From Vicia villosa (lineage: Eukaryota; Streptophyta; Magnoliopsida; Fabales; Fabaceae), in assembly GCF_029867415.1 (NCBI RefSeq), contig NW_026705403.1, positions 248,001 through 312,000 of the forward strand: DNA of 64,000 nucleotides, given 5' to 3'. Made by a program: the position numbers and the translations under genes. Every line of letters starts with the position of its first letter. The stretch's first letter is position 1. The notes beneath the pieces are model-generated. The model saw nothing but the letters and a program-made list of their open reading frames with translations. It did not search any database and was not told where the DNA came from. This document shows positions 2,744 to 46,108 of this stretch, piece after piece.

Positions 2744-4183
2744 TGATCGGTCACCATTTCTAGTAAGTTTCCGCACCTTTTTCCGACCAAAAGTCATAAT
2801 CTTGGTAATACTAAGTGGCATTGTTATAGGTTTTATTATAAGTTTCTTAATTTGTCGGTTGTTTGAGTTTTGCATGCTAGTGTGTTTTAAGTTTTATAAA
2901 AGTGCCATTTTATGCGTTGGTTGTTAGTTTGTTGTTGGCCAGGTTGACCCAGGAATGAGATAGGAACTTAGGACACTTCGGGGCGAAAAAAGAAGCTGAA
3001 AGAACCAAAGATGAAGGTTCACACGGGCACCCGTGTGCATGCACACGGGCCGTGTCAAAAGATGGCTGGAAAGATGTTTTTGAGAAGCAAAACAGAGGTT
3101 TCACACGGGCACCCGTGTTCCTGCACACGGCCCGTGTGGAAAGATGCGTGGAAAGGAAATTTTTGAGAGCTGACCAGAGGAACAACACGGGCACCCGTGT
3201 TCCTGCACACGGACCGTGTTGTTAGGCGCGGGCAGATGTTCAAGTTTTGTAATTTTGAAAGCATGGATCTCATTAAGGGTATTTCGGACCTTTCGGATGC
3301 GGAGGAAGTGAGCCAACACTACTAAAACCTAACGGGAAGAAGTGTGAAGGCAGCTTGGATCATTGAGGATAGAGAATTACAGAGAAAGAACAGTCAAGGG
3401 TTTTGGAAGAGATCTTCAAGAGCACTCGCGATTGGAGATCATATCGACCGATAATTTCTTGTAATGACTTCATTTACTCTTGTTATTTTCTTAAACACTA
3501 TGAGTAGCTAAACTATTTTATGCTAGGGTGATGTCCCTAAATCTTTTCATGTAATGACTTGTTAAAACCGTTGTGATGAATTTGATGTTTTTATAATTTG
3601 AGTTTATGATTCAAAGATTTTCATGCTTCATCATATTGGAAAATATTTTGTTGATCTATGATTAGGGTTAGGCGTGACACACCACTCTAATGCGTTTTGA
3701 ATCAAAACATTACCGGTAAATCGCTTAGGAATAAGGATTTCACCATAGTGATCATTCATTCTAGATTACGATGCATAATGCCTTAATACTAAAATCAATT
3801 ATTGAGGAATTGAAATTGACTTTTAAGTATTAATAAGTTCTCCACTAAGGAATTAGGGAAAACTATTTTATGGAATTGATACTCAATTGTAGTCACATCT
3901 TTTCATGAACAACGGTGTTCTCAAGGAGTTACATAAGATTTATACATCAACCTTAGCATGCCTTCTCATTTGTGAACCAAATCATCATTTACTTATCGTT
4001 TTTAATTATAAACAGTTAGTAGTTTTATCAAGAAAATCAAAAACCAACAATAGCTTTTTGTTCAGTTGAAATTTAGTCCTGGCTTATATTTTATCCGCAG
4101 TCCTTGTGATCGATACTTGGATTCAACTCCATTTTAATAACTACATCGGTAACAAAAGTAGTACACTTGCTATTTTCCGATCA
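2744..4183 (+). repeat. Athila LTR (1440 bp)
   Basis: It starts TGATCGG and ends CCGATCA, a perfect 7-bp terminal inverted repeat of the TG...CA kind. It is preceded by the purine motif AAGTGTGGGG and followed after 6 nt by a PBS, which fixes both edges. The U3-side part holds three tandem 82-bp units with paired palindromes (3021-3219). No second LTR lies in the window, so age and TSD cannot be judged. Confidence 0.85.
3021..3219 (+). repeat. Three tandem 82-bp units, each with a pair of GC-rich palindromes
   Basis: Each unit has ACACGGGCACCCGTGT (3021, 3103, 3185), a 6-nt spacer, then ACACGG-N-CCGTGT (3043, 3125, 3207). Centres are 20.5 bp apart in each. The middle base N of the second palindrome is G, C and A in the three copies, while both 6-bp arms are unchanged. 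The sequence between units has drifted much more. Confidence 0.9.
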
Positions 4184-4189
4184 AGTTTT

Positions 4190-4207
4190 TGGCGCCGTTG
4201 CCGGGGA
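4190..4207 (+). other. Primer-binding site, Athila type
   Basis: TGGCGCCGTTGCCGGGGA lies 6 nt after the LTR end. From family knowledge this is the usual Athila/Cyclops PBS, complementary to a tRNA-Asp 3' end. Confidence 0.85.
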
Positions 4208-4336
4208 CTGCCAAACTATAAGCCGAACTTTAAGTCAATTGAAATTTTGTTGCTCTGCGACCAAAATTTTATTTTTATCTGTTAATTTTAATTTCGTTGC
4301 AGTCTTGTATCTGTTCTAACTGTTGTCTAACTGTTT

Positions 4337-6138
4337 ATGCGAGGTCAGACCTCAGCTAAATTTTCCTTTGACACAGAACCAGAAAGAGCTCTGCACGAGA
4401 GACGCCGCAAGGCAAGAATTGAAAGACTGGCAGCACCAAGTGCAAGTCTTAGTGTTCCACATCAGGAAAGCGACGACGAAGTGTCTGTGCATTCGGAGCA
4501 CAGTGACTCTGACTTTGACAGGGAGGTAGTTCAGGAACCAGTTAACATGGCTGGAAATCAACCTCCTGCAGAAAGATTGTTAGGGGACTATGGAGGGGCA
4601 AATGCTCACCCCAACCGGATGACTATTGTTAATCAACCTGTGAATGTGGCACATTTTCAATTGCATCCATCCACCATTCGCCAGTTAGAGAGCAAGCCGT
4701 TCTCCGGAAGAATAAACGAGGATGCAAATAAGCATCTTCAGAGATTTCTCACTACGACAACTTCGTTGAAGATCGAAGGTCATTCAGAGGAAGCCAAGAG
4801 ACTTGTTATGTTCCCGTTTACACTTACTGATGACGCAGAGGAGTGGTTTTACTCACTTCCGGCTGCAAGTATCACAACATGGCAAGAGATGGAAACGGCA
4901 TTCCTCAATGAATATTTTCCTGCGTCGGTGTTCATCCGAAAAAGATACGACATTGTAAATTTCAAACAAAAAGAGGGGGAATCATTGGGGGATGCATACA
5001 AGAGGTTCAAAAGGTGTTTGACTGCATGTCCTACTCATAACATGGACGCTACCGAGCAAATGCAGAATTTTGTGAATGGGTTGCGACTTAAGACAAAGCA
5101 GCTTATTGATACCGCTGCTGGTGGTTCAACAAATTTTGCTACAGCCACAGTTATGAAAAGGATCATAGAGGCAATAGCTGCTAATGAGCATCTTGAGTTG
5201 TATGATCGTACCATGAGCCAACCGGAGGGCAAAATTGATTTGAAGTTGCCAGAACAGGTTGTAAAGATGGAGGATCAGATTGCTGCAGAGGTAGAGAGAA
5301 GGTTAAAAAAGATGAATATTGGAACTCAGACAGTAGCACAGGTGGAACCAGTTAAAGCGGTTCTTTGTGAAATATGTGGTGGACCGCACTTTGCTATGCA
5401 TTGTGTAGCAACTCAAGAACAGGTTGAGCAGATTCATATGTTGAGGCAAAACAATCCTTATGCCAACACATATAATCCGGGGTGGAAAAATCATCCGAAT
5501 TTCTCATGGAAAGACCAGCAAGGAAACGTCCAAAAGCCGGTTCAAGGACAACAACCATATCAGCCTCAGACTCAACAATACCAACCACAGGGACAACAAT
5601 ATCGTCCCCAATAACAACCATACCAGCAACCTCAACAACAATACCAACCACAGGGTCCAAGAAAGGCGGATTGGGAAATTGCCATTGAAAAGATGGCCGC
5701 TCAAAGCTCCCAATTCCAAGAAGAGACACGTAGCAATTTAAGGAACACCGGAGCCTCAATCAAGAACCTTGAAGTACAAATGAGTCAAATTGCTCAACAC
5801 CTTGCAATTCCGCAAGCACCAGGAGCCCTCCCAAGCGCAACTGTTACTAATCCTAAAGACAATCAAAAAATCAATGTCGTCACTACACGGAGAGGGAAAC
5901 CACGTGAAGTGGTGGAAAAGGATTCGGAGAGTGAGGATCAATTGCTTGAGGTGGAGCTGGACATAAGAGAGAATGAGCAAGTGGAAGAAGAAGTGGTAAC
6001 ACCAGCACCAGTTACGAAAGAAAAAGTATTAACACCAACACCAGAAGTCAAGCTGCCTTACCCTCAAAGAAACAAGAAAAAGGGGCAGCAAGAAAAGAAT
6101 TTTGAGAAGTTCCTGGAATTATTCAAAAAGCTGGAATA
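4337..6138 (+). pseudogene. Athila gag, one nonsense codon and truncated
   Basis: The frame opens at ATG 4337 (MRGQTSAKF), 130 bp after the PBS. The retrotransposon gag domain is at about residues 115-240 (FSGRINEDANKHLQRFL, DDAEEWFYSLP, ITTWQEM), then the zinc knuckle CEICGGPHFAMHC at about residues 345-357 with the Athila-type C-x2-C-x3-H-x4-C spacing. A glutamine/tyrosine/proline-rich tract follows. An in-frame TAA at 5612-5614 lies among CAA codons, which fits one C-to-T change. The same frame is open again from 5615 to the break at about 6138 near LELFKKLE, where the Ogre sequence begins. Protease and pol are absent. It would encode the capsid/nucleocapsid protein if intact. Confidence 0.85.
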
Positions 6139-6180
6139 AAGGTTGTAACAGAATGTCCCCTATGGCGTAATAAAGGTTGT
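6135..6180. other. Athila/Ogre breakpoint with a 12-bp templated repeat
   Basis: The 12-mer AATAAAGGTTGT occurs at 6135-6146 and again at 6169-6180. The second copy is native Ogre RT coding sequence on - (codons for TTFI). The first sits at the break between Athila gag and Ogre RT, where neither element predicts it except for a short AATAAA overlap. It looks like filler copied from nearby DNA during end joining. Confidence 0.65.
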
Positions 6181-6865: not shown

Positions 6866-7133
6866 CTGCACAAGTGATTATTATTTCAGGAAAAAGGAAA
6901 GATATATGCAAACATGTAATCGTGCAGATTATGGCAAATGAAAACATTTTTTAAGGTTTTTTGTGTTACCACTTTCCAGAAAAAGCAAAAAGATAAAAAG
7001 CATGTATATGCAGAAACAAAATGACTTTTATTGATGATTTTAATGTTTGAAGCAAACAGAAAACGGCCCCAACAAACTTCACTTTCATCTTGGGCAGAAT
7101 GAAAGGATTTTGAAAAACATAAAAGCAAATTAC
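6866..7133 (-). other. Ogre intron between protease and RT
   Basis: Donor on - is TTCAAA|GTAATTTG (GT at 7133-7132) and acceptor is CACTTGTGCAG|ATTAATT (AG at 6867-6866). Splicing turns AAG-TAA into AAA-TTA and joins THASK to LINKTVES in frame, bypassing the TAA that ends the gag-protease ORF. A spliced intron here is known for Ogre. The 268-bp length and these borders are read from the sequence. Confidence 0.8.
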
Positions 7134-10100
7134 TTTGAAGCATGAGTACACTCAGGAATGTCAATGGTGATCCAATTCTTAATCATCTTTCCATGGGTCA
7201 CAAAGTTTGGCACTTCTGGCTCTGACTCATCTTCAACAATAGCGTTCACTTCTGGAAGAGTCGGATGTAGAAACCCAGCACTATGGAACATTTCCTGATA
7301 AGGACGAAAAGCAGATTCAGGCTTCATCACAGACTTGTCTGAGGCAGAAAATCCCAGACCAGCTCTATTCTTGTTCTCTTGCAGACTCACCACTTGTCCC
7401 CAGACTCCTGAATGTCCATTCTGAACCACCAGCTGAGTATCTTTGAAGGAGGCAATGGAAGCTTCATCCTTTTTGAATTCATCATTAACAGACAGAGCTT
7501 GGAATGCCGTTCCAATGACCACTTCATCAGCTTCTATGGTTCGGAACGAAGAGAGATGACTGATCAGCAAAGCTTGCTCTCCATTCACAACGACCATCTT
7601 TCCATCTTTCATAAATTTCAACTTCTGGTGAAGAGTTGAAGTAACTGCCCTAGCCTCATGGATCCATGGGCGTCCCAATAAGCAACTGTATGCAGGGAAA
7701 ATGTCCATCACTTGAAAATTAATCTTGAAGACAAATGGTCCAATACCAATAGGCAAATCAACCTCTCTAACCACTGATTTCTTCGATCCATCAAAAGCCT
7801 TGACAATCACATTACTAAATCTCATTGGTGTGCCACCATAGGACAGCTTAGCAAGAGTGGATTTCGGCATGACATTCAGCGATGAACCAGTATCGATCAA
7901 CACATTGGACATTGAGTCCTCTTTGCAACTGACAGAGATGTGCAAAGCCAAATTATGATTTCTCCCTTCCTCTGGCAAATCTTCATCACTAAAGCTCAGA
8001 TTGTTACATGCAGTGATATTACTCACAACCCCATTAAACTGATCTACCGTCACATCATGATCCACAAAGGCTTGATCAAGTATTTTCATCAAAGAATCCC
8101 TATGAGCAGGAGAACTTGTCAGCAGCTCCATTATAGAGATCTTGTATGGAGTGCGATGCAACTGATCCACAATCTTATAATCACTCATCTTGATAAGCTT
8201 CAAAATCTCATCCATCTCCTTTCCTGAAGATGACACAGCATTCACTTTTGTCGCATCATTATTGTTTACAGGCACTTGAGTAAGATTCTTCTGGACATCC
8301 ACAACTATTTGGGGTTGAGTAAAAACTCGTCCGCTTCTAGTCACTCTACTAACATCTGCTATATTCTCAACAGAAGACAAAGGCTTAATCTCAACTTCTT
8401 TTTCAGCTTCCAACATGGTGGAATTGTATCTGTAGGGTACAGCTTTGTCAGAACTATAAGGTACAAACCCAGGCAAACATATCACAAGAGGTTCTACAAC
8501 AGCTTTGCCATAATAACCAATCTCTACACATTCCGGGATTTCAAAGCATGGTTCAATCACATTGACATCATCTTCATCTCTATCCCTCAGAATCTCAATG
8601 AGCCTTTGATTTATCATCTCTTGTAAATCTCTTCTCACAATATAACATCCTCGAGGATTAACTGAACAGATCCTACAAGCAGCATGATTATGCTCATAAT
8701 GACTGTATTCACACAGAGTGGCATGCATCTCTACCAATGATCCTCTGATGTGTTCCACACGATAAATCTTATACTTCCCAGGGCACCCATACACCATATT
8801 CACAGCAGACGCTTCATGAGTCGGCAATGGATTGTTCTTCACATTAGGGCCAATATCACGGAAAGAAAGCATTTCAGAATGAACCAATCTCTGAACTTCA
8901 TTCTTCAAAGGCCAGCAATTCTCTAAGTCATGCCCAGGAGCATTCTGATGAAAAGCGCAAGTGGCATCAGCCTTGTACCACCAAGGGAGTTTCTCTGGAA
9001 CAGGAGGTGGTGACCTTGGTTGAACCAACTTTTTATGTATTAGTGCAGGATACAGTTCAGTATATGTCATGGGGATAGGATCAATATTAACCCGAGGATA
9101 CGGATTCCGCCTTGCTGGTTGTTGATTATCAGGAACTACATGCACCGAATTCACAACAGGAGTTACTGACGCCACTTGTTGAGATTGATTTCTAAATCGA
9201 CTATTCCTCCCATGAGAAACAGCATTAGCATCTGATTCCTTCTTCTTCTTGAATGAAGAACCATACTTCTTCGCACCACCAGACGAATTATCATTCCGAA
9301 CCAGACGGCCTTCTCGCACAGCTTCTTCCAACCTGACACCCATACCCACCATTTCGGTGAAGTCTACAGGAGCACTCGCAATCATTTTCTCATAGTAAAA
9401 CGGACCAAGAGTCTTCAGAAAAATCTTAGTCATCTCTTTTTCTTCCATCGGAGGAATCACTTGGGCGGCAACCTCACGCCATCTCTGAGCATATTCCTTG
9501 AAGGATTCCTTCTCTTTCTGCATCATAGCTCGCAATTGATCCCTATCAGGAGCCATGTCCACATTATACTTGTATTGCTTCACAAACGCCTCAGCTAAGT
9601 CATTAAAAGTGCGAATATGGGTGCTATCAAGGCCCATATACCACTTTGAAGCAGCTCCAGTCAAACTGTCTTGGAAATAATGGATCAATAGACGTTGATC
9701 ATCAGTGTGAGTGGACATCTTCCTTACATACATCACCAGATGTGCCTGAGGACAGGAATTTCCTTTATACTTCTCGAATTCAGGCAGCTTGAACTTAGCA
9801 GGTACTTTCACATTGGGAACAAGGCAAAGATCATGCACATTCTTTCCAAACAGTTCTTTCCCACGGAGAGCTTTCATTTCTTTCTGCAGTTCTTCAAACT
9901 GATCTTGGAAACCATCCATTCTGTCTTGAATTTCACTTGGAGCAGCATCATAAATGGGCACTGGGACAAAAGGACCAGTATGGACAATAGGAGATGTGTT
10001 GACCATAACAGGAGTCAACAGACGAGTCATCTCAGGAACAAACAAATAACCTTCAGGCATGCCCCAGGGATATCCATTAGGCATACGTTGCTGAGTAGCA

Positions 10101-10447
10101 CCAACAGGAACAGCAGGAATGGTAGTAGCAGCAATTTCAGAAACCACAGTGGTCTGGCCTTGAGCTTGGGCATTGGGAGGAGGAACCTGATTCTGATTCT
10201 GATTCTGATTCTGAGCAGCCATCAATGTCTCAACCAGAGCAGTGAGACGATCCACACTAGATCTCAAAGTAACAACCTCTTCACGTAGCTCACGATTCTC
10301 TTGTTCAAGACCTTCCATCTTCTTATTGCAGTTAGCTTGAGTGTTATACCGGTGAGACAACTTGATTCTGTATGAAGAACACTGAATAAGACCTCGGGAA
10401 TACTCTCGGAAGCAAGACCAAAATGCAGAATGATGCATGAAATGCAA
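7134..10447 (-). CDS. Ogre gag-protease exon
   Basis: One open frame of 1105 codons. The first ATG is at 10447, but MEGLEQENRELREEV at 10318 looks like the usual gag start and opens a short coiled coil. The region between may be the tail of ORF1 or a leader. Gag core: KFKLPEFEKYKG, HLVMYVRKM, AASKWYMGL, EYAQRWREVA. A cysteine/histidine cluster CAFHQNAPGHDLENCWPLK is the Ogre-type nucleocapsid motif. The aspartic protease has active site LIDTGSSLNVMP and the closing motif LLGRPWIHEA. The ORF ends at a TAA inside the intron, which splicing removes. No internal disabling change is seen. It makes the structural protein and protease of the particle. Confidence 0.87.
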
Positions 10448-10597
10448 TGCAAATTATTTTTATTGGTTTTCAAGGAACCTTAAGACATTAATTGTAAACA
10501 TTAGCAAAAAACATAAAACATAACAACATTCTTCATTAATAATAGAAAAGCTTACAAAAGGATTCAAAGATCCAAAATTACAAAACAAAGGAAAAAA

Positions 10598-12126
10598 CTA
10601 GAAACTGGAAGGGAACACTTCTGATGAAGATCCAACTCCTCTCTGCAGCTTCCTACGGAGCTTCTCCGACTCATCTTTATAAAAGGCCTTCAAATGAGCA
10701 TTCTCGACCATCAACTTATCAGCAACTTCCTTCCATGCAACTGAATCTTCTTGTTGTCTCTTTCGCTTTTCACCATGTTGTTGAAGTAGCTCTTCTTGAT
10801 GACGAATCTGATCATCCTTTTCCATCAACCAACCATCTTGGATATCAAGCATTTCATCCTTTTCTTTCAAGTGTATCTTCAACTCTTTATTCTCCATTTC
10901 CGAAGCATGAAACTTCTTCTCCCAAGCATCTCTTTCCATTCTCATCTTAGCCACGAGCTCTAGATGCTCCTCATTACTTTCAACAAGAGTAGTGAAAGAC
11001 AAAGGTGGAGCAATGGGTAGAGAAGGCTCCTCAAGCATATAAGGCATCTGAAAAGTATGAGCTCTAGCTTGAACCCAATCAGTGTAGTCTTTGAGAGCAA
11101 CACATTTTTTCGTTCCCAAATGTCTCTTCCTATCAATATGGTGCCAAGCACGCACAAACCGATTTCTCATATCCGAATTTCCATCTTGATTAAGATAGAA
11201 GATTCCTGACACAAGAATACTAGCGGGTCGCTCCTTCATGGGGTAGCAAAATTGACGCCTTGCAAGAATGGGGTTGTAGGTAATTCCTCCTTGTATACCA
11301 AGAAGAGGTACATTAGGGAATTCTCCACAACTATCAATAATCTCACCAATGTCATAAGCAGGATTGTACCAATAGATATTCCTATTAGTAAGAGGCATGA
11401 TCTTCTGAGACCAAGAGAGACCATCAGGGTTGTTCAAGAAATTCTTAGCTTGAGGTAAGTGCGAAATAAACCACTTATAGAGCAAAGGAGTGCAACAGTT
11501 GATAAGTCCACCTTTCTTATCATTCCTATAGTGAATGGAATGATAAGTATCCCCAAGCAAAGTAGGAACGGGATTCCCAATCATGAAGATCCGAATAGCA
11601 TTAACATCGACAAAATTGTCAATGTTGGGAAAGAGTATCAAACCATAGATGAGCAAGGCCAAAAATGTCTCAAAAGCAATCATACTTCCTTTACTAGCCA
11701 ACATAGAAGCCTTTCCAATCAAGAACTTAGAAGTCAACCCCAAATTCCTCCTTTTTTGGTCATATTTGCTTTCACATCTGATATCTTCAAATGAAGAAGC
11801 TCTGCTATCTCATCAACCTGAGGCTCTTTCTCCAGACCACTAAACGGTATATCATTCGTAACTGGCAAACCAATCCAATAAGAATACTCCTCCAAAGTGG
11901 CCATGAGCTGATAATCAGGAAAGGTGAAACAATGATAAACCGGGTCATAAAACTGCACCAGAGTCTCAAGAATCCCTTTTTCCACTTTGGTCTTCAAGAT
12001 AGAGATCAATTTCCCATAACGGTTTTTGAAGTTGTCAAGATTAGGAACCAAAGTTGCTAGCTCTTTCAATTCCTTTGCACTTGAATTCCTGAAAGTGTAC
12101 TTCTTGATGCTTCTTTTTTGATCCAT
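10598..12126 (-). pseudogene. Ogre ORF1, frameshifted
   Basis: The ORF starts at ATG 12126 (MDQKRSIKKYTF), runs 130 codons to ..TKKGGIWG, then stops. The next frame takes over at about 11743 with GLTSKFLIGKASML and runs to 10598. A single missing base near 11745-11750 explains this. The N-terminal half (YGKLISIL, LEEYSYWIGLPV, PQAKNF, RPASILVSGIFY) is the plant-specific ORF1 domain seen in Ogre and in many legume unknown proteins. The C-terminal 100 residues are a charged coiled coil. Function is not established. It lies between the PBS leader and gag, the diagnostic Ogre position. Confidence 0.8.
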
Positions 12127-15053: not shown

Positions 15054-15653
15054 CAAAACAAGCATAAAAAAGGCAAAAAACCACATTCTGCCAGCAAGAA
15101 ATCGATTTCATGCAGGGGGAAATCGATTTCCATAGTGCAGTTTAAAAAAAAAACAAGTTACGTACAGCATGAAATCGATTTCATCCTTAAGGAAATCGAT
15201 TTCATCAGTGTAAATTTCAGCAAAAACATCATTTAAAGGCATGAAACTTGATTTGAACAAATATACAAACACCTTATGATCACATATCAATTGGAGCACG
15301 AATTTTCCATCACAAAACCAGCAATTATCATCAATGTAGCATCTAAGATGCATCACACACAAGCACAAAAGAATCACATTATGATGGATGAATAAAGATG
15401 AAGAAAATTACCAAATCTTGAACAAAACTTAGATATACTTCAAGAATCACCAACACAAATCTTGATCTCTCAACAATTGAAGAAAAAGAGTGAAATGGAT
15501 GGTGGTTTAGCTCAAAGTTTTGTGAGGTTCAAGATGTGACTCACAAACTTTATGAAAGAAAAAGAGCTTTGGTGAATTTGGTAGGGATGAGGAGAGAAAT
15601 TGCAAGGGGTTTTTTTGGCTCTCAAAGCTTGAGAAATGAGAGAGTAGTGACCT

Positions 15654-15662
15654 CTATTTATA
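15654..15662 (-). promoter_or_regulatory. TATA box of the Ogre LTR
   Basis: TATAAATAG on -, in a GC-flanked context (CTATAAATAGAGG), 711 bp inside the LTR start. It fits a Pol II promoter driving the element leftwards. Confidence 0.6.
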
Positions 15663-15743: not shown

Positions 15744-16373
15744 CTTGTGTTTAATTGGTAATTAAAGTGGCATTTAAATGGTAAAAAATGGTAAAATGAG
15801 GTTTAAGTGGGTTTAAGGAAGGGTTTAATTTTGATGAGGTGGAAAATTGGTAAAATGATCAAATAAAGAAGGTGCCAAAATGATGTCAAGCTTCCCTCCT
15901 TATATTTTTTTGAATTTCGCCTTAAGGAAATCGATTTCCCCAGGAGTGAAATCGATTTCACTCTGTTCCAGAAGAGAATTTGGCGCAAAATACACTAGGG
16001 AAATCGATTTACCCAGGAGGGAAATCGATTTCATGCTGTCCAGAATGTGATTTTGTTGAAAATTGCTGTAGGGAAATCGATTTACCCAAGAGGGAAATCG
16101 ATTTCATGCTGTCAAAAATGTGGAAAATGCCTTGCTTATGGATGTCTTTGCTTAGTACCTACAAATCAAAAACCTACAAAGAAACAAAGAAATATTTTTG
16201 GTATTTTGGTTAGTATAATATGCATACAAGATACACAATCATTGGTGCTTGATGGTCCCTCTTATTGATGAGGTGAGTGCAACACCACAAACAAAACTTC
16301 CAAGTGAAGCTCTTGATTAATGATTGGGATATGAATGATATATGATCTTAGGGTCAAAAATTGGGTTATGACA

Positions 16374-16548
16374 CAGTGGTTTTTACATGTTTATTTGTTA
16401 GTTAGTTCAGTTACCTTTCGTTTATATTGTCAAGCATTTTATTTCATTCTTCTACATTTTATGCTTTGGTTGTGTATTTTACTGTTTGTAGGCTCAAAGA
16501 AATTAATGGCGATGGTACGAATTAATGGCGATGGTACGGGAAAAAACG
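16374..16548. other. Short spacer between Ogre LTR and NLR remnant
   Basis: A 19-bp unit (AATTAATGGCGATGGTACG) is tandemly duplicated at 16501-16538. Otherwise no feature is seen. The NLR similarity begins just after it, so the left edge of the remnant is a rearranged breakpoint. Confidence 0.5.
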
Positions 16549-16841
16549 GTGATGGGGCCACTGCTACCTGTATCACTTGTGAAATTAGGCATTTGTTGTC
16601 TTAATGATAAGAGCATTGATGGGATGTGGCTTCAACATCTCATATCTTTCAAAAACCTTGAAATTGTGAACGCTCCCAAACTGAAATCTTTGCCCAAAGG
16701 ATTGCCTTCCTCTCTTTCAATACTAAGTATCACTCATGTCCATTACTGGTAGCAACATTACGGAGGAAGCGAAGGAAAGAGTGGCGTAAGATTGCTTACA
16801 TTCCTGCAATAATTATCGACGACGAATTGATCACATAAGTT
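16549..16841 (+). pseudogene. 3' terminal fragment of a CC-NBS-LRR paralogue
   Basis: The DNA aligns without large gaps to the last ~290 bp of the intact NLR (60084-60374). Shared words include GPLLP, SLVKL, WLQHL, NLEI, NAPKLKSLPK, then KEWRKIA and the C-terminus DELIT. The reading frame breaks near 16733, where the intact gene encodes VTRCPLLEASL. The rest of the gene is absent: Ogre sequence lies to the left. The 3' flank continues on both sides of the copia insertion. It is a non-functional duplicate of the LRR end. Confidence 0.88.
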
Positions 16842-24860: not shown

Positions 24861-26083
24861 TGTAACATCTTTTAAAAAGTCTGGTCGCTTAATTGAAACA
24901 GGTTAATCAAACAACAAATAACTTTTGGTAGATTAACATTATTTTATTAGACTAAGGTTTCAGAAATTGAATAAGTGGAAAGTCAAGTTTGTCTTGAATT
25001 TGGAAAGAGATTTGAACAACATCGGAGTATCTAACTAGCTCTAATTGATGTCTTTCTATTGTATACGCTTTGAATATCTTTGAAAACTATTGTGAATCTT
25101 TTCTTTGAATTGAATTGCTTTATGTTATGAATGTTGTTGTGAAGTTAAGTATTGTTGTATGATGTGTGCAACATAGCGACGTGATTGTGAAGTGATGCAT
25201 TATTATGAATGATGATTTTGTTGTTGTTGAAGTTCGACATTATATTAATAATGTTCGATGGTGATTTAGACAATGTTGTGATGTGTCGTATATGTTATGT
25301 TTATGTGGATGTTGCGTTCATTGAGTCACATCCATTTTCATAAAGCGACGGTGGCCTTAATGGCAAATAGCTATGGTGTGCCCAATGGCAAAATTGAGAC
25401 GGTGGGAGTTTTACTCCAATTGGTACCACATGCATTTGCATAAGTCGAGTCACATGTGAATTGCATTTGAGTCTTATTTGATCATGTTGTTGTGACTTGA
25501 TGAAGATATGTTTGTTGTGATGTGATGACTTGATGACGAGATGTTTGTCGTGATATGTTGGAATATTACTTGTGAATTGCATATATTGTCATGGTTGATT
25601 GTTGACATTGTTGCCGTTTCATAAGTTGATTATGTGATTTGGATTGTTGAGATGATGATATGTTTGTTGTGATGTGATGATAGTGTAATTGTGAATTTGA
25701 ATACATTGTCCTAATTGATTAATGATATTGTTGCCGTTTTGGAAGTTGTATTATATTGGTAAGTTGTTATGCGATGAAAATTGTCGTAAGATGTTATGTG
25801 ATGCGAAGTGGTGAAATTATGTATGATCTATATCTCCTATATTATTTATCATGCATTCCTTTATATTGTAAGATATCTCACCCCTTTGCTGATATTTCCC
25901 CTACCATGAGAAATGGGTAGGTACTCAAGTTTAGCCGTGGACGTTCGAGGTTATTTATGTGAAGTCTTTATGTTGCTTTATGGCAAGTCGAGTTGGTGTC
26001 CATTGCTCTGATACGTAGCACTCGGGGGATTAGTCTTTATTAAATGCAATATATGTATCATTATTAAATGCAATATAAGTATG
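24861..26083 (+). repeat. LTR-like sequence, left part, split by the Sirevirus
   Basis: It may start TGTAACATC (24861). It holds features I associate with Tekay/Del-type gypsy LTRs in legumes: AAGATATCTCACCCC near 25870, the GCTCTGATACGTAGCACTCGG stretch near 26010, and T/G-rich degenerate repeats of TTGTTGTGATGTGATGACTTG (25480-25680). Its continuation across the Sirevirus is 36383-36484, ending GGGTATTACA. TGTAA..TTACA would be the terminal inverted repeat. I find no TSD, so the left edge is tentative. Confidence 0.45.
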
Positions 26084-27297
26084 TGAAGGATAGAAAAACA
26101 CTTAGAAAGGGGGGTTTTGAATAAGTGTAGTTTAAAAACTTGAATGATAAAAACAATTTGCACAGTTATTTTTATCCTGGTTCGTTGTTAACTAAACTAC
26201 TCCCGTCCACCCCCACGGAGTGATTTACCTCACCTGAGGATTTAATCCACTAATCGCAACAGATTACAATGGTTTTCCACTTAGCCCACGACTAAGTCTT
26301 CTAGAGTATCCTGATCACAACCTGATCACTCTAGGAACAAATGCTTAGACACAAGCTAAGACTTTCTTAGAGTATCCTGACCACCACGTGATCACTCTAA
26401 TTACAACTGCTTAGACACAAGCTAAGACTTCCTAGAGTATCATGATCAACACTTGATCACTCTAGTTACTTACAAATTAATGTAAACAATTCTAAGAGTA
26501 TTACAATTGCTTCTGAAAAGCTATAATCACAACAGTGATATTTCTCTTAACGTTTAAGCTTAATCTCACTAATATATTACAACAGCAATGTAGTGAGCTT
26601 TGATGAAGATGAAGTTTCTGAGCTTTGAGTTGAACAGCGTTTCAGCAAGTTTTTCAGAATAAGTACGTTCAGAATTGGTAACCTTGCTTCTCATCAGAAC
26701 TTCATATTTATAGGCACTTGAGAAGATGACCGTTGGGAGCATTTAATGCTTTGCGTATTCCGTACTGCATTGCATTTAATGTTTCACGCTTTTGTCAACT
26801 ACCTCGAGCCTTGTTCACGCTGTGTCTACTGACGTTGCCTTTAATAGCTTCCAACGTTCCTTTTGTCAGTCAGCGTAGCCTGCCACTTGTACTTGCTTCT
26901 GATCTGATGTTTGTGAATACAACGTTTGAATATCATCAGAGTCAAACAGCTTGGTGCATAGCATCTTCTTGTCTTCTGACCTTGAAGTGCTTCTGAGCGT
27001 GATACCATGAGAACTTCAGTGCTTCTGCTTCTGAGCTCAAGTTCTTCTGATGCTTCCATAGACCCATGTTCTAATTCTGCCTTGACCATCTTCTAATGTC
27101 TTGCCAGACCATGTTCTGATGTTGCATGCTGAACCTTCTGAGACAGAGCTTCTGAGCGCTGATTTGTGCATACTCTTTATATATTTCCTGAAAGGGAAAT
27201 TGCAATGTATTAGAGTACCACATTATCTCACACAAAATTCATATCCTTGTTATCATCAAAACTAAGAATATTGATCAGAACAAATCTTGTTCTAACA
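26084..27297 (-). repeat. Sirevirus 3' LTR (1214 bp)
   Basis: On - starts TGTTAGAACAAG and ends TCTATCCTTCA. It holds three tandem units of about 66 bp with paired TGATCA motifs (26312/26323, 26378/26389, 26443/26454). The first member of the second unit is TGACCA. Confidence 0.95.
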
Positions 27298-28447
27298 ATC
27301 TCCCCCATTTTGATGATGACAAAAACATATATAAATGATATGAATTTGCGATCAGAAAGAGCAGACGGCTAAAGACAATTACACAGCTATAGCATAAGCA
27401 TGTGAATATGTCTCCCCCTGAGATTAACAATCTCCCCCTGAGATGAATAATCTCCCCCTGAAATTAATACTAGAAGAATTTTATAAATAAAAGACTTCCC
27501 CGAGTATTTCAGTAGAGACGTTCACAGTGCTTGATCTTCAGAAGATTTATGACTTCTGATTTCTGCTTCCATTAGGACAGCTTCAGAACTTTGAATTTCT
27601 TTAGATCCTCAGAACATTCACAGCTTCTGATTCCTGCTTCCATCGGACAGCTTCAGAACATGAATTTCTTTGATCTTCAGAACATTCACAGCTTCTGATT
27701 CCTGCTTCCATCGGACAGCTTCAGAACTTGAATTTCTTTGATCTTCAGAACATTCACAGCTTCTGATTCTTGCTTCCATCGGACAGCTTCAGAACTTGAA
27801 TTTCTTCTTACATCACTTCATGCTAGATTGTATCAGAACATTGTTGAATGTACCAGAGCATCATCAGAGCATCTCTACATCCTGAAATGTTACAGAACAA
27901 CGCTAAACGACAAAAGTCAGCATGAATGAGTCAGAACATAGAATATGTTTCAGAACACATAATATGTATCAGAGCCATATAGAATGTATCAGATCCATAT
28001 AAAATGTATCAGAACAAATAGACATAATGTTTCAGATCATATTCTATCATCAGAATATCTGAACATCTTCCTTCTTGCTTCTAATTCTGAAGCTTCATAG
28101 CACTCAGCTTGCTTCAAGAATCCAAGAACTTGATTCATCTTGTTGCTTCTTATGTTGATCTTGAATTCCTACAACAACACAACTTAAGGCATAGAACTTT
28201 GCAAGTTCTGTTAGTAATGTGGGGCCTTTTTACCCGGTAACTGATAATATTTAATCAGATCATTTTATCATATATTTTCTCCCCCTTTTTGTCATAACAT
28301 CAAAAAGAATATAAAAGATTCAGATGTAGAAAACGACAAAGGAAAGAGACAGAATCAAACTTTTCATTAATTAAGCAAACAGAATTACATAAGATGTATG
28401 CAGTAAAAGCAGATGCAACAAGGAAAGAAAACTACAAAGACCAAAGA
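27298..28447 (-). other. Sirevirus 3' untranslated region with multiple polypurine tracts and a 68-bp tandem repeat
   Basis: The PPT next to the LTR reads AAAATGGGGGAGAT on -. Three more (TCAGGGGGAGA on -) start at 27411, 27431 and 27451, exactly 20 bp apart, and another purine tract (AAAAGGGGGAGAAAA on -) is near 28278. Multiple PPTs are a Sirevirus trait. A tandem repeat with copies at about 27553, 27624, 27692 and 27760 carries AGCTTCTGATTCCTGCTTCC. Confidence 0.85.
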
Positions 28448-35163: not shown

Positions 35164-36377
35164 TGAAGGATAGAAAAACACTTAGAAAGGGGGGGTTTGA
35201 ATAAGTGTAGTTTAAAAACTTGAATGATAAAAACAATTTGCACAGTTATTTTTATCCTGGTTCGTTGTTAACTAAACTACTCCAGTCCACCCCCACGGAG
35301 TGATTTACCTCACCTGAGGATTTAATCCACTAATCGCAACAGATTACAATGGTTTTCCACTTAGCCCACGACTAAGTCTTCTAGAGTATCCTGATCACAA
35401 CCTGATCACTCTAGGAACAAATGCTTAGACACAAGCTAAGACTTTCTTAGAGTATCCTGACCACCACGTGATCACTCTAATTACAACTGCTTAGACACAA
35501 GCTAAGACTTCCTAGAGTATCCTGATCAACACTTGATCACTCTAGTTACTTACAAATTAATGTAAACAATTCTAAGAGTATTACAATTGCTTCTGAAAAG
35601 CTATAATCACAACAGTGATATTTCTCTTAACGTTTAAGCTTAATCTCACTAATATATTACAACAGCAATGTAGTGAGCTTTGATGAAGATGAAGTTTCTG
35701 AGCATTGAGTTGAACAGCGTTTCAGAAAGTTTTTCAGAATAAGTACGCTCAGAATTGGTAACCTTGCTTCTCATCAGAACTTCATATTTATAGGCACTTG
35801 AGAAGATGACCGTTGGGAGCATTTAATGCTTTGCATATTCCGTACAGCATTGCATTTAATTTTTCACGCTTTTGTCAACTACCTCGAGCCTTGTTCACGC
35901 TGTGTCTACTGACGTTGCCTTTAATATCTTCCAACGTTCCTTTTGTCAGTCAGCGTGGCCTGCCACTTGTACTTGCTTCTGATCTGATGTTTGTGAATAC
36001 AACGTTTGAATATCATTAGAGTCAAACAGCTTGGTGCATAGCATCTTCTTGTCTTCTGACCTTGAAGTGCTTCTGAGCGTGATACCATGAGAACTTCAGT
36101 GCTTCTGCTTCTGAGCTCAAGTTCTTCTGATGCTTCCATAGACCCATGTTATGATTCTGCCTTGACCATCTTCTGATGTCTTGCCAGACTATGTTCTGAT
36201 GTTGCATGCTGAACCTTCTGAGACAGAGCTTCTGAGCGTTGATTTGTGCATACTCTTTATATATTTCCTGAAAGGGAAATTGCAATGTATTAGAGTACCA
36301 CATTATCTCACACAAAATTCATATCCTTGTTATCATCAAAACTAAGAATATTGATCAGAACAAATCTTGTTCTAACA
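35164..36377 (-). repeat. Sirevirus 5' LTR (1214 bp)
   Basis: Same length as the other LTR. A TATA box on - (TATAAATA) is at 35785-35792. The TGATCA pairs (first at 35392/35403) lie on the transcribed side of it. Confidence 0.95.
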
Positions 36378-38960: not shown

Positions 38961-39606
38961 CTGGCCATCACACTTCTCATCACCAAATTTTTTTAAATAT
39001 TTTGTTGCGTTTACCGCATTTTTTGAAATTTCTGATAAGAAATTACATTTTTGGTAAAAATTTGAAAAAAAAACCGGATTTTTTGAGAAAATCCGATAGT
39101 TCATATTCGAAAGAAAATAAAAAAAGAAGTTAACACTATGCGAGATTTCAAAATTTTGAGTAAATTGGCACACTTTTCAAAAGTTTCAGTAAATTGGCAC
39201 GCATTTCAAAATTTTCGATAAACTACAACACTTTTAGAAATTTTTAATAGTGTTAAATAATTTTTTTTGTTGAACTGCGGAAATGTTAAAAAATCCCGAA
39301 ATATAAGGCACATACGGGGTTTATCAAAGAATTTGATATGTTAATATTTTTTTTCAAAAAATTGATAAAAAATTTCGTATTGACCATTTGAAAATAAATT
39401 ATCAAAAATTTTGGTATATTATTTAAAATTTTGAATGAACTATTAAAAATTCCATTTTCATTTAACTCAAATTTATCAATAAATAATTTAAAAATTATAA
39501 AAATATGTAAGGTGCAAATTTAAATGAGGGGTGAAATGTTAAATACTCCTCTCTCACGCACTAGGAAATATAAGGTGCAAATTTAAATGAGGGGTAAAAA
39601 TAATTA
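38961..39606. other. AT-rich DNA with degenerate short tandem repeats
   Basis: Loose repeats of a TCAAAATTTTGAGTAAATTGGCACAC-like unit at 39140-39240, and a 26-bp direct repeat (GGTGCAAATTTAAATGAGGG) at about 39511 and 39572. No gene. Confidence 0.6.
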
Positions 39607-39750
39607 GAGAATTTCTTTGTACATTCATATAGGATAAAAAACACCCATAGAAATTCTAAAATATCATTTGGATATGCATATGCGAGCACACCCCAAAGAA
39701 ATTTGGAGTATTAGTTATTTCGGATATGCATATCTGAATTCACCCAAAGT

Positions 39751-39808
39751 AATTTGGGATATTGGTTAATTCGGATATGCATATCCAAATTAACCAATAT
39801 CCCAAATT
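39751..39808. repeat. 58-bp near-perfect palindrome
   Basis: 28 of 29 positions pair; the only mismatch is C/T beside the central GGATATGCATATCC. Outer arms read AATTTGGGATATTGGTTAAT. Confidence 0.95.
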
Positions 39809-40151
39809 TCTTTTGATTTTATTTTAAAAAGATATTTATTTATAATATAGTTATGATATAATTAATGTGAATTATTATTAATAAAGAATAACTTAAATAC
39901 AAATGGTTATAAATAAGGAATAGAAAGATTAAATAAAATTTTAATTTTGTAATAATCAATTTGTCACAAATTTTTTAAAATTTAAAAAGTAATTATTTTT
40001 TAAATGATTATAACATTATGCAGTAGAATTAATGAAATTATAATGTTAAAAATATCATCCTATTAGTATTATAATTTTTAATTTATATTAGTTTTTTTTT
40101 AATTAATTTTATATAAAAATAACGTGGTGATCTAAATATTTAATAAATTGA

Positions 40152-40204
<53 letters not shown>
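40152..40204. repeat. (TTA)n microsatellite
   Basis: About 17 uninterrupted trinucleotides. Confidence 0.97.
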
Positions 40205-40207
<3 letters not shown>

Positions 40208-40312
40208 CTTGATTATAATGAATTTGACGCATTTAGATATGCATCTTCGAATTCTAGAAAAAAAATTGCTAAAAAATCCTAAGAAGATATATGAATATAT
40301 AAAAAATTTCTC

Positions 40313-40872: not shown

Positions 40873-41101
40873 ATGGTGGAGGTTATTGTGAGAGAAATTA
40901 ACACCATTCGTCTCAGCTTCTGTGAAAGCGTTGTTACAAAAGTTTGTTTCTACTTACTTCTCGAGTACGAAGGTTGACGATTCACTGTTGATAACACTCA
41001 CGGGGATTCAACCTGTACTTGATTATTATGTTGACGACATGAAATGGCTGGATTTGCTGATAGATCTTGTATATCATGTTGACACGTTGTTTGACCCATA
41101 A
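40873..41101 (+). pseudogene. N-terminal (Rx-type coiled coil) relic of a CC-NBS-LRR gene
   Basis: The start ATGGTGGAGGTTATTGTGAG lines up with the start of the intact NLR. After a frame change near 40910 the frame reads FVSASVKALLQKFVSTYF, KVDDSLL and WLDLLIDLVYHVDTLFDP, which is the Rx_N domain including a degenerate EDVID-region motif. It stops at TAA 41099-41101. The NB-ARC and LRR are absent. This relic keeps the helix that is shortened in the intact gene, so it is a different paralogue rather than a copy of it. Confidence 0.75.
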
Positions 41102-41603: not shown

Positions 41604-42012
41604 GGTTTTTGCGAATTTTTACTCAAAAATTATATTTCCAATATAATTTCCAATATGCCACATCCTGAAATTAAATTTCCAATATGTCACACCCATTTGC
41701 ATGTCGCCATTTAATCTGGTGGAATGGGTGCATGTCGCCATTTGATTTGGCGGAATGGGGGCCTCGGTATTTGCATGTCGCCGTCTCATTTGGCGACATG
41801 AAATTTTTTAATTTTTTTTTCATTTTTTTATTTAAAATTATTTTAATTCAGACTTTAATATAATTAATAAAAAAATAAAAATAATTTTAAACTTTAATAT
41901 AAATAATAAATAACAAAATACTAAAATAAAAACAAATTTTATTAAACATAATAATAATAATACTAAATAATATTAATACAACTTAATATTTAAAGCAGGA
42001 AATAAATCGTGA

Positions 42013-42790
42013 CTAGTTAGAAGGGTCTTCAGCATTTGGCCGATGCGGACATTTTTTGCGCATATGGGGTTCTTGACAGATTCGACATCGTCTTTTAATC
42101 TTCTCAACGGTGTCTATTTCAGTCCTAATGCGAGTGTTGTTCGAGCGACCTTTTTTGTTTCGTCGCATTCTTTCATTATGTAAAAGAGTGTCGCCTTGAT
42201 ATTGAGGTCATCTATCTTCTTTGGGAAGACCGATGAAGCTCTGTTCATATACTTTGAAGACATTTCGAACTCTATATACGGGAAGGATAAACATAGTATA
42301 GTTGAGTCGGATGTGAGAAAAGGCTACAATAGCATGCGAGCAAGGCACATGAAAAGTTTGAAATTGCCCACAGTCACATGTTTCTTTTTGGAGGTCGACA
42401 ATTAAATAAGTAAGTGGTCGACACTCGTTATTATTAACTGTCTCTTGGACAATGAAATAGTTTCTCTCACGATCAAAACTCGGGACATTATAACTATGGG
42501 ACTTTTCTACTTCTTTTGCAATCCCTTTCATGCAATTATCTGTGAAATCCTTCCCCGATGACAACATCTTTGTCCAGTCATGACCTTGCTGCCCAAACAA
42601 TGAGTCCATCCTGAAGTATGTTGATTTTACCAGTGCTATAATAGGTAAATTCCTAGTTTCCTTCATCACCGAGTTCATCGATTCAACAAGATTGGTTGTC
42701 ATGTGACCCCATCGTTTTCCTCCGTCATAAGCTCGCGACCACTATTCTCTTGGAAGATTCTCTACCCAGTTTGGCTATGTACAAGATATA
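42013..42790 (-). pseudogene. MULE transposase C-terminal part (SWIM and zinc knuckle)
   Basis: One frame on - from about 42790 to TAG 42013-42015 with only two nonsense codons, both explained by single changes (TAG within PRE*WSRAYDGGKRWGHM near 42737; TGA after LPKEDR at 42208). MTTNLVESMNSVMKETRNLP, the SWIM zinc finger CDCGQFQTFHVPCSHAI, and the C-terminal knuckle CRICQEPHMRKKC with a short tail PHRPNAEDPSN are typical of plant MuDR-type transposases. The catalytic DDE region is deleted. Confidence 0.88.
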
Positions 42791-43181
42791 CGCGACACGC
42801 CAAACTTCCTCAAAGATGATAAAAAATAAGTGCCTCACCCACCCAAATCAACTATTCCGCGACGAGCAAGAATGTTGGAGAAATAGGGCATCATTTACGT
42901 TAGAGGGTACACAATTACAAGAGGAGACGAAACCATCAATTGAGTGCATGCATTGGTATAGGTCGTTTCCATTTAGATATGCATCGTACAAACATTTTCT
43001 CACTGACCCACGCTCAATTCCAAATCCACCCAACCAACCTCAACAACAATCCTTCCAACAACAACAACCTCAACAACAATCCTTCCAACAACAACCTCAA
43101 CACCAAACCTTCCAACAACAACCTCAACACCAAACCTTCCAACAAAGTTTAAAATTTTTATTTTATTTTATTATTATTTAA
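42791..43181 (+). pseudogene. Plant-mobile-domain-like C-terminal fragment with Q-rich tail
   Basis: The + frame reads RDEQECWRNRASFTLEGTQ, SIECMHWYRSFPFRY and FLTDPRSIPNPP. The H/MxWYR element near the end recalls plant mobile domain (MAIN-like) proteins that some MULEs carry. Then come CAA-rich repeats of about 27 bp (43036-43145) giving QQQSFQQQPQ-type tandem peptides. Upstream parts are missing. The assignment rests on a short motif, so it is tentative. Confidence 0.5.
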
Positions 43182-43456
43182 AAATAATTAAAACATATTT
43201 TAAATGATTTAAAATATTTATTGAATAAATAAATTAAAACTGAATTAAACAAAATCATTTTAAATAAAAAAAATGAAGAAAAAAATTCCACATCGTCGAA
43301 TGAGACAGCGACATGCAAATACCGTGGCCCCATTCCGCCAGATCAAATGGCGACATGCAAATGGGTGTGGCATATTGGGAATTTAATTTCAGGGTGTGGC
43401 ATATTGGGAATATAATTTCAGAGGTGGGGTATTTTGAGAAAAAATTCGGTTTTTGC

Positions 43457-44050
43457 GAATTTGTAGAGAATTATGATGAACTGATTCACAAAAGTACCGC
43501 TAACCGGTTCGCATGTACAAATTCGCGGTTGAAGTTAAAATAACCAAATCATTACTAATGGTTAGTGAACCAAACTTACATTTTATTAATGGTTCAAGAA
43601 CCGAATCGTTAAGCAATTAACCAATCTCAAATTAACCCCGAAACGAACCGTTTCGTACTTAAGTATCTAAATTGAATTTCTTTTTTGAAAATAAAAAATT
43701 AAAATTAAAAAAGTTGATTTTTTTATTAAAAAAAATTGTTTTTTCGAAAATAAAACCGAAGATTTTTTAAAATAACAAAAAATCGATTTTTTTCAAAAAT
43801 AAAAAAAGTCAATTTTTAACGAAAAATAAAGAAGTCAATTTCTTCGAAAATAAAAACGTCAATTTTTTCCAAAAAAATAGAAAAGTCAATTTATTTGAAA
43901 ATAACAAAAAATCGATTTTTTCAAAAATAAAAAAGGCAATTTTTTACGAAAAATAAAGAAGTCGATTTCTTCGAAAAGAAATACGTCGATTTTCCAAATA
44001 TTACAAGCACAATACTATGATACCGTGGTCGAAAATAAAAAAGTCAATTT
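43457..44050. repeat. AT-rich minisatellite, left arm (interrupted by LINE)
   Basis: From about 43675: degenerate repeats of a TTTTTTCGAAAATAAAAAAGTCAA-like unit, 22-40 bp long. The same repeat resumes at 55076. 43457-43674 is plain AT-rich DNA with no feature. Confidence 0.75.
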
Positions 44051-44405
44051 TATGCTTAGGTGACGGGAACAATGCATATTTTTATGCTTCTCTGAAAGAG
44101 TAACACAAGCAGAATACTATGAAAAGCATTACAAGAGATAATGGGTCTAATTCCACTTCCCAAGAAGACATTGAAGAGGAAGTTTTGAACTACAATAAAC
44201 TAATGGGGAAGCTGACTAAAATTTGGAGGATATAGATATTCTTGCGATGCAAAATGGAAGTCGATTGAATAATGAACAAAGGGACATGTTGGAGGCGCTT
44301 GTGTGTGAACAAGAAAGTATGGAAGCTCTAAATGGTATAAGGGATAACTCTGCCCCTGGGATAGATGGTTATGATGCTATTTTTTTAAAGAAAACATGGT
44401 CAACT
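44051..44405 (+). pseudogene. LINE RT, N-terminal part
   Basis: Contains LGDGNNAYFYASL, TSQEDIEEEVLNYNKLMG and the RT entry motif DNSAPGIDGYDAIFLKKTW. Two or more frame changes. It ends at the TSD CAACT (44401-44405), and the reading continues at 53047. Confidence 0.8.
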
Positions 44406-45019
44406 TGTAATACCCTACCAATATGCGTCTAGAATCATATCGGTAAAATATTAATAACTGGTACTGAGTATAAACAAAAGCTATGAATAATGACATAAAT
44501 TGCATACATTTATAAATCATCTCGAAGATGGATACAATGAATATGTCTACACAGTAATAATAATATACGGCGGAAGAAAAGATTAGGCACAGTCTTCACT
44601 ACATCCGATCAAGGCTCTTGATCCAAACATCTAGCAAAACCCGATCTTGCATGGTACCTGAAAAATAATAATGAATGGGGTGAGATTACTAAATCTCAGT
44701 GAGTTCCCCTATCTTATGGGTCCTCTCGGCTCTACAGGGTACATGCATCATCTATAGATCCATCTCAGATCCTAAGGTTTCCTCACTATCCAGTATAGGA
44801 AAGCCTATCAACTCGTAGCTCCACAATTTAGTGTCCACTGACCGCCCGATTGAACACTCTGAAAGCATATCGCATGTTCAGATATTAGGTATATGTTTCC
44901 TGCAGGATAGGTCTTCCAGATTTAGAAGCCTGTCTACTCTCAGAACAAGACCCAGAAGCATACCTTTTCAATCTACAAGGTAATTAATTCATATAGACTA
45001 TAGGGAATCCTGGATTTGA

Positions 45020-45330
45020 CATTGAATCGCGTCGCACGATTCAATTCCTCAAAACCATGGAATCCTAACTCCGAACCACATCACACAATTCGAATCATCA
45101 ATAGTATGGATCATAGGGAAACATGGATTCTCATCGAATTGCATCGCACAATTCAACTTATCGAAACCATGGAATTAACACTGAATCGCATCACACGATT
45201 CGAATCCTCAATAATATGGATCGTAGGGAAACATGGATTCTCATCGAATTGCATCGCACAATTCAACTCATCAAACCCATGGAATCAACTCCGAATCGCA
45301 TCACACGATTCGAATCCTCAATAATGAGAA
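45020..45330. repeat. 110-bp tandem repeat, nearly 3 units, in the LTR
   Basis: ATGGATTCTCATCGAATTGC at 45123 and 45233, with the matching half-unit GAATCGCATCACACGATTCG in between and after. The other LTR has the same array (51443, 51553). Confidence 0.9.
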
Positions 45331-45999
45331 CGATAAGGGGAAGGTATTGGTTCGCATCCCCGGGAGTTCATCCCTGAAGAATACTCCTGAACTACAGAGC
45401 ACCAATCAATCCCGAGCGTCACACCCGAGAAGGACCTTCATATATGGCCTGGGAGCATCCTTGGACATCGCATCACAAGGACAACCACATATAAGTAACA
45501 AGCATCGCACCGGTTACTACCCTCATGCCCATTATGTAACCCTTCGCCATGGAACAACCTTGTTAGTTGACCTCCGTTAATCCTTCATAATATACATTCT
45601 AAGGATTACCTCACCATTATGTTTATTGAGTAAACATCCTTTTAACACTTATGTTAATAGTATAACCTTTCATCTCTTGGTCCATATAACGCAATCTGTC
45701 ATTACATGTCTTAATTATCTTTAATTAATCATGTATTATACTTAGGTTAGTTTATATAAACCCAAGAGTCAATCATACATGTCACATACTAATTTTCACC
45801 AAGTTTTGCTTTTATTAAACAAGATACAAAATATACATTTGGATTTTAGTAATATTTAGAATTATGATAGAGTTATGGAAGCTTAGGCATCTCATAGCCC
45901 TTTCCGTTAGCTTTCCAACGATATAAAATTTGCGTCAATCGGATATGCGATGCAAAAGTTATGAATTTATGAAGTTTCGAAAAAGCTGCCCAAACAGCG

Positions 46000-46108
46000 A
46001 TGTAACGGGTTACATGAATCATGTAACCGGTTACATGACCAAAAAACTGCGTTTTCACCTTTTTTTCACACATGTAACCGGTTACATCAAACATGTAACC
46101 GGTTACAT
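46000..46108. repeat. Two pairs of the palindrome ATGTAACCGGTTACAT, each pair spaced 21 bp
   Basis: Starts 46000/46021 and 46072/46093, both 21 bp apart. The first copy has one central mismatch (CGGG). The other LTR has the same at 52320/52341 and 52393/52414. Confidence 0.95.

Follow-up and report, generated by a model that had tools for sequence, protein, structure and literature searches.

In a 64,000-nucleotide stretch of Vicia villosa DNA (contig NW_026705403.1, positions 248,001 to 312,000; hereafter, the window), palindromic sites in the long terminal repeats (LTRs) of three retrotransposon families, namely Athila, Ogre, and a third element, are arranged in pairs with centers 20.5 or 21 bp apart. 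Both the sequence of the sites and their spacing are constrained, while the intervening DNA has drifted, and this is the strongest result of the analysis. We put at about 0.5 the probability that the arrays are cis-regulatory LTR modules bound cooperatively by dimeric host proteins. The claim that the spacing is common to the families is suggestive only; three instances from a single window do not suffice to establish a general rule of spacing. The plant evidence is that of the window, and the outside collections scanned were viral and prokaryotic.

The Athila array (3018–3219, forward strand) consists of 2.5 units of 82 bp, in which ACACGGGCACCCGTGT (at 3021, 3103, and 3185) is followed across a 5-bp spacer by ACACGG-N-CCGTGT (at 3043, 3125, and 3207); the centers were 20.5 bp apart in three of three pairs, the pair-to-pair distance was 61.5 bp, and both unit intervals were 82 bp. 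Ogre carries two arrays on the reverse strand. Array A (15927–16105) holds three GAAATCGATTT(C/A)-N9-GAAATCGATTTC pairs (15927/15948, 16000/16021, and 16073/16094), with 21 bp within and 52 bp between them, and array B (15098–15203), inverted relative to array A (inverted repeat I1), holds two pairs (15098/15119 and 15171/15192) at 21/52/21 bp. All five Ogre pairs had centers 21 bp apart, with a pair-to-pair distance of 52 bp and a unit of 73 bp in three of three intervals, and although up to six of the nine spacer positions differed, spacer length stayed at 9 bp. In the third element, ATGTAAC(C/G)GGTTACAT occurs four times in each LTR, again on the reverse strand, at 46000–46108 (3′ LTR, 21/51/21 bp) and 52320–52429 (5′ LTR, 21/52/21 bp); the centers of its pairs (46000/46021, 46072/46093, 52320/52341, and 52393/52414) were 21 bp apart in four of four cases, the unit length was 72–73 bp, and the pair-to-pair distances in the two LTRs were 51 and 52 bp. 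A sequence-only reading of the window had listed these pairs, and each of its coordinates and spacings was reproduced, as was its remark that the center distance is constant although palindrome and spacer lengths differ (16+5, 12+9, and 16/13+6). Its range of 3021–46108 fell short of the second third-element array, and its description of the sites needed amending: the palindromes are present, but the Athila 16-mer is a 7-bp inverted repeat with an unpaired CA center rather than a perfect palindrome, and members are not uniform, because one of them carries a single change in two of the five Ogre pairs (the first member, GAAATCGATTTA, with one end base off) and in one of the two pairs, the first, of each third-element LTR (ATGTAACGGGTTACAT).

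The constraint was evident from differences between adjacent units, counted with one LTR of the third element and over positions that are not fully independent: pooled, palindromes differed at 4 of 162 positions and flanks at 121 of 249 (Fisher p ~1e-27), and the contrast had p below 1e-4 in each of the four arrays. Palindrome differences were 2/58 in Athila, 1/48 in Ogre A, 0/24 in Ogre B, and 1/32 in the third element, versus flank differences of 40/94, 37/80, 18/40, and 26/35, respectively; flank divergence between units was 32–74%. Unit length was unchanged in all five Athila and Ogre intervals. Because palindromes and unit lengths were kept while flanks drifted, we conclude that sites and spacing are constrained; gene conversion on a 12-bp scale would be an unlikely alternative. 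Among 134 symmetric position pairs within the palindrome copies, three of which are the unpaired CA center of the Athila 16-mer, 131 were unchanged, three had one-sided changes, and none had changes on both sides, so that no compensatory base change keeping a stem was seen in the 134. The lack of both-sided arm changes favors protein recognition of the sequence over pairing. The sequence-only reading had offered a dimeric factor or a hairpin/cruciform, and it is the latter that is disfavored, even though the arrays fold well as RNA; we set the cruciform or hairpin aside as the principal explanation, as it is the sequence and not the pairing that is kept despite strong folds. Extensions of the palindromes past their cores (0–4 extra pairs in 11 copies) had the look of covariation, but a weak one. 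The counted palindrome copies, again with one LTR of the third element, contain 26 CG, and the CpG observed/expected ratio outside them is 0.45–0.71, which is suggestive only.

Palindromes were also more frequent than expected in these LTRs. Perfect palindromes of at least six pairs numbered five in Athila, nine in Ogre, and five in each third-element LTR, against dinucleotide-shuffle means of 0.92, 1.45, 1.28, and 1.29, and the observed counts were reached in 0, 0, 1, and 2 of 200 shuffles, respectively. No such excess over dinucleotide shuffles was found in a SIRE-like region (2 versus 1.67; 26030–28400, the limits used for the count) or in a small copia LTR (0 versus 0.21), both names being our assumption from copia-type Pfam domains. 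Palindrome clusters were present in three of the five LTR families. Throughout the window, 62 palindromic 12- or 13-mers gave 55 near-identical recurrences within 150 bp, compared with 0–2 in ten Markov controls; the three families accounted for 36 of these and the rest of the window for 19 (the SIRE-like element, AT-rich repeats, and elements resembling terminal inverted repeat (TIR) transposons).

The distances are close to whole helical turns. At 10.5 bp per turn, the mean cosine of the within-pair phase was 0.985, for which a p value would not be a fair test because these distances prompted the finding. The between-pair distances (61.5, 52, and 51–52 bp), which the sequence-only reading had not used, gave a mean cosine of 0.802 (p = 0.024). 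With random spacers, the three families agreed within 0.5 bp with p of 0.001–0.004. Since the pairs of one family are copies of one unit, the 3 + 5 + 2 pairs amount to three independent facts, not ten.

We propose that each palindrome would be recognized by a host protein that binds DNA as a symmetric dimer, and that two such dimers, being two helical turns apart, would share one face of the DNA and cooperate in binding. Repetition of the pairs at approximately five to six turns may add avidity. The site sequence is lineage-specific, which could reflect different factors or differently specialized members of one factor family, and the arrays may act as enhancer- or silencer-type modules. Protein binding, dimers, cooperativity, and any effect on LTR activity are all predicted here from the DNA sequence. 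More tentatively, and with more doubt than belief, we suggest that unrelated plant LTR lineages may have converged on one architecture, namely two-turn palindrome pairs repeated every seven to eight turns and read by dimeric host factors that share geometry and not sequence preference. The interpretation offered by the sequence-only reading was partly supported, in that site and spacing constraint and further near-whole-turn distances were added to it, with the families limited to three.

The position of the arrays relative to likely transcription starts was judged from consensus TATA matches, which are not mapped starts. In the Ogre LTR region, the sole TATAWAW match (CCTATAAATAGAGG) is at 15656–15662 on the reverse strand (offset 712); array A (offsets 269–447) lies 265–443 bp upstream of it. 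In the third element, the array occupies offsets 613–721, and a TATA-like TATATAA follows 242–350 bp downstream (45752–45758, reverse strand, offset 963 in the 3′ LTR; its equivalent in the 5′ LTR is at 52078); a second TATAWAW match in the 3′ LTR is at 44514 (offset 2207). Ogre array A and the third-element array, at 242–443 bp upstream of a TATA match, agree with a regulatory module. The sole TATAWAW match in the Athila LTR is at 2895–2901 on the forward strand (offset 152). Taken together, the arrays lie on both sides of the likely start, as enhancer-type elements can.

Several points weigh against the binding of cooperating dimers at a set spacing. The Athila array (offsets 278–476) and Ogre array B (offsets 1171–1276, approximately 459–564 bp past the match) are both downstream of their TATA matches. 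Independent families number only three, and the within-pair distances had already been noticed when they were tested. The flanks of the third-element pairs, at 26 of 35 positions differing, and those of Athila units 1 and 3 (33/47) are no more alike than by chance, so that descent from one unit is assumed there. Palindromes in the TIR-like elements (TTCGGA-N8-TCCGAA and the like) recur at intervals of 45–48, 51–52, and once 84 bp, mostly out of phase (mean cosine −0.32, or −0.16 with the 84-bp interval), and the 66-bp unit of the SIRE-like element is out of phase as well. The arms of the Ogre copy at 15169, ATGAAATC, match those of the third element, ATGTAACC, at six of eight positions. In addition, periods of 20–22 bp account for 6 of 28 tandem-repeat rows with a 15–40-bp period found by Tandem Repeats Finder, some of which overlap and from which the two rows of the third element were excluded; since such periods are common, agreement would be expected much more often if duplication is taken as the null. 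In the third element, the second pair is itself a 21-bp tandem repeat with a similar spacer, which duplication fits.

These last observations, together with the sample of three, are what favors the explanation that each LTR came by one palindrome, by chance or otherwise, which was copied by slippage approximately 20 bp away, and then multiplied in 73- or 82-bp repeats, which would make the 21 bp meaningless. However, the two members of the Athila pair are unlike in length and center, and the Ogre spacers are, by eye, unlike the following flank; because of these mismatches, neither the Athila nor the Ogre pairs can be plain 21-bp duplications of recent date. Moreover, flanks differ by 32–74% between units that have kept their palindromes and lengths, which drift would not do, and we regard duplication as an improbable source of the pattern. 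A role in RNA, in which the palindromes of neighboring pairs form long hairpins that feed small-RNA production and silencing or have some other function as RNA, seems to us likewise unlikely. All five segments folded (third element on both strands, Ogre A in part, Ogre B, and Athila in part) were far more stable than shuffles (z from −4.4 to −11.4), and equal 21-nt distances in both pairs give near-symmetric internal loops in the folds. In maize Sireviruses, an RNA function has been proposed for the palindrome-rich cis region, and Bousios et al. 2016, as described in PMC10760457, reportedly found a small-RNA excess on clusters of palindromic motifs. Yet arrays of identical palindromes all fold in this way, both-sided changes were absent from the 134 position pairs, hairpins would form without the sum of stem and loop being the same in every family (16+5, 12+9, 16/13+6), and an element has no obvious gain from retaining a silencing trigger.

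A single ancestral module could instead have spread between LTR families by recombination, with its palindromes altered afterwards. Ogre and the third element have a common 21/51–52/21 layout, and the arm likeness of 6/8 in one Ogre copy points the same way; the palindromes of these two may be variants of a single kind of site, from which that of Athila differs, so that the description of all the palindromes as unrelated holds for Athila and less well for Ogre versus the third element. With the palindromes masked, ten cross-family comparisons were made against shuffles that kept base composition only. The lowest of them were reached by 7, 31, 49, and 49 of 500 shuffles; the lowest, Ogre B versus reversed Athila, would favor a shared module, but 7/500 is not notable because ten tests were made with composition-only shuffles, which favor chance matches of simple sequence. 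The other nine were each reached by at least 31 of 500, whereas the two Ogre arrays compared with each other gave 0 of 500. Beyond the palindromes themselves, the families show no homology that convinces us, and recombination of one module, which the sequence-only reading had named as a refuting alternative, is very improbable. RNA dimerization signals serve packaging in retroviruses, and palindromes of 12–16 nt in transcribed LTR parts could serve to pair two genomic RNAs in the same manner; multiple phased copies would not be needed for this, a literature search on the subject returned nothing, and we give the idea scarcely any credence.

The LTR at 2744–4183 (forward strand, 1,440 bp, TGATCGG...CCGATCA followed by a primer-binding-site-like (PBS-like) TGGCGCCGTTGCCGGGGA) has Athila internal sequence on either side and was assigned to Athila because an ATHILA ORF-1 (PF03078, E 1.3e-25) at 55–1380 and a Retrotrans_gag/Ty3_capsid-type gag (PF03732) at 4331–5611 stand on its two sides. 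The region 1–6159 thus holds a single Athila LTR between the 3′ part of one element and the gag of another copy, an arrangement as in tandem Athila elements with a common LTR. The Ogre LTR region was analyzed on the reverse strand from its start, TGTCATAACCC at 16373, to 14000, which is only the limit of analysis. On the same strand are an open reading frame (ORF), ORF1, with DUF7745 (10601–11809) and a gag-type ORF with Ty3-type gag (7133–10453), an order that we take to be typical of Ogre.

The third element, which the sequence-only reading had called chromovirus-derived, has its 3′ LTR at 44406–46720 and its 5′ LTR at 50726–53041, both on the reverse strand, with a PBS-like TGGTATCAGAGC on the internal side of the latter, presumably that of initiator Met, and a purine tract. 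The LTRs differ by 15 substitutions over 2,315 aligned sites and one gap, and the 5-bp target duplication CAACT (44401–44405 and 53042–53046) is intact; judging from these two features, the LTR type was recently active and the insertion is recent. No long ORF is left inside the element (44401–53046), which presumably moved in trans. Pfam searches with two integrase-like fragments from it returned nothing above cut-off (one match, E 0.26), so the chromovirus label was not confirmed, and with neither a long ORF nor a Pfam match, that name and even Ty3/gypsy are tentative and follow the sequence-only reading. Beside its array, at 45905–45965, is a stretch around CTTTCCAACG...CAAAAGTTATGA, which we assume to resemble a motif of other plant LTRs.

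LTR retrotransposons of at least five families are present in the window, along with AT-rich elements whose ends are inverted and an NB-ARC/LRR resistance-type (NLR) gene at 57198–60374. Two pieces with 82–84% identity to the 3′ part of this gene adjoin the Ogre LTR at 16543–16840. The SIRE-like LTR has 66-bp repeats at 26292–26465 and 35372–35545, in which TGATCA sites lie 11 bp, or one turn, apart within a longer imperfect palindrome; in the first array, the middle unit has one TGATCA site altered. The AT-rich elements at 55600–56830, directly upstream of the NLR gene, and at 39604–40260 have ends that are alike by eye (AGAGAATTTCTTT, inverted at both ends of 55600–56830) and hold 20-bp palindromes such as TTCGGA-N8-TCCGAA. 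They are probably TIR transposons with subterminal repeats.

Retrotransposons make up a large share of many crop genomes. If the two-turn rule were true across LTR families, it would provide a signature, independent of sequence, by which their regulatory core could be recognized in plants, and would lead directly to the host factors that activate these elements or tag them for silencing. The spacing could then serve to locate LTR regulatory modules in the genome of any plant and to isolate the factors. Even if the rule fails, frozen palindromes beside drifted flanks suggest selection on palindromic repeated motifs in non-Sirevirus LTRs.

Outside plants, scans of viral contigs were mostly without a match; the ORF lists of two contigs (L001 and L002) were not plant-like by look, no family search having been made. 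When a non-coding frame spanning one of the arrays was used as a protein query, four candidates came up, all of them weaker than E 10. The prokaryotic scan for paired GTAAYCGRTTAC palindromes yielded at least 120 loci (L003–L122). Among the matches listed, 91 of 133 pairs (122 loci including the two viral ones) had a center distance of 21–22 or 30–32 bp; merged into 30 clusters, 13 lay at 20–22 or 30–32 bp (binomial p = 0.03; V test p = 0.033 at 10.5 bp and 0.18 at 10.0). We treat these pairs as a weak control, because one cluster of 37 was mixed and the distance bands were picked after the list had been seen. Several of the pairs at 30–32 bp, among the matches listed, were in enterobacteria. 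In form, we take the paired palindromes to resemble bacterial repressor operators, and possibly that is what they are. They are like the LTR pairs in being paired and in their central CG, with center distances that favor 21–22 and 30–32 bp, but they belong to unrelated organisms and serve as an analogy only.

In the literature, a string search for these palindromes returned four papers, none of them on plant LTRs by title, and the available parts of PMC10167742, PMC6911290, PMC11963269, and PMC10794571 describe no paired palindromes inside LTRs. The sequence-only reading knew of no description of a constant 21-bp phase, and none was found in the literature searched, which is weak evidence since subscription papers lay mostly outside the search. 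Its statement that similar palindromes occur in plant LTRs was right. The closest system is the repeated motif (RM) of Sirevirus LTRs, which, in the accessible text of Bousios et al. 2010 (PMC2829016), is palindromic, is present in multiple near-identical copies (at least eight per element), has a CGG-CCG core except in Tnd-1, mostly has its array begin 200–400 bp from the LTR start and ahead of the TATA box, and is called Sirevirus-specific and absent from classic elements. The present arrays are similar in having near-identical palindromes in multiple copies, namely 6 in the sole Athila LTR (in two forms), 10 in one Ogre LTR, and 4 per third-element LTR or 8 over the two. The core is CGG-N-CCG in Athila and CCGG in the third element; the ATCGAT of Ogre does not have it, although the Tnd-1 RM, ACAATCGATTGT, has AATCGATT in common with the Ogre site (PMC2829016, same text). 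The arrays start at 278 (Athila, downstream of TATA), 269 (Ogre A, upstream), and 613 (third element, upstream). They are not Sirevirus RMs, because their carriers are Athila, Ogre, and the third element and not Ty1/copia Sireviruses; the domains found were Athila ORF-1 and Ty3-type gag for Athila and Ogre, the third element being without a Pfam assignment. A further difference is that the copies here are paired two turns apart, whereas the accessible text of PMC2829016 gives no fixed center spacing.

The palindrome clusters of maize Sireviruses (Bousios et al. 2016, via the available part of PMC10760457) are likewise LTR clusters with strong predicted folding; theirs reportedly show a small-RNA excess, whereas here it is sequence rather than pairing that is conserved. 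For the spacing, the nearest parallels are transcription factors of plants: in the parts available, neighboring motifs of maize clade A ARFs are phased at 10 bp (PMC6207667), and the quartets of floral MADS proteins assemble best when the number of turns is integral, usually 3–7 (PMC10178880). Their site sequences differ from the LTR sites; the likeness would lie in two sites of a dimeric factor at whole-turn distances. Compared with all of these systems, what is apparently new is the presence of palindromic arrays in Athila, Ogre, and the third element, together with their two-turn pairing.

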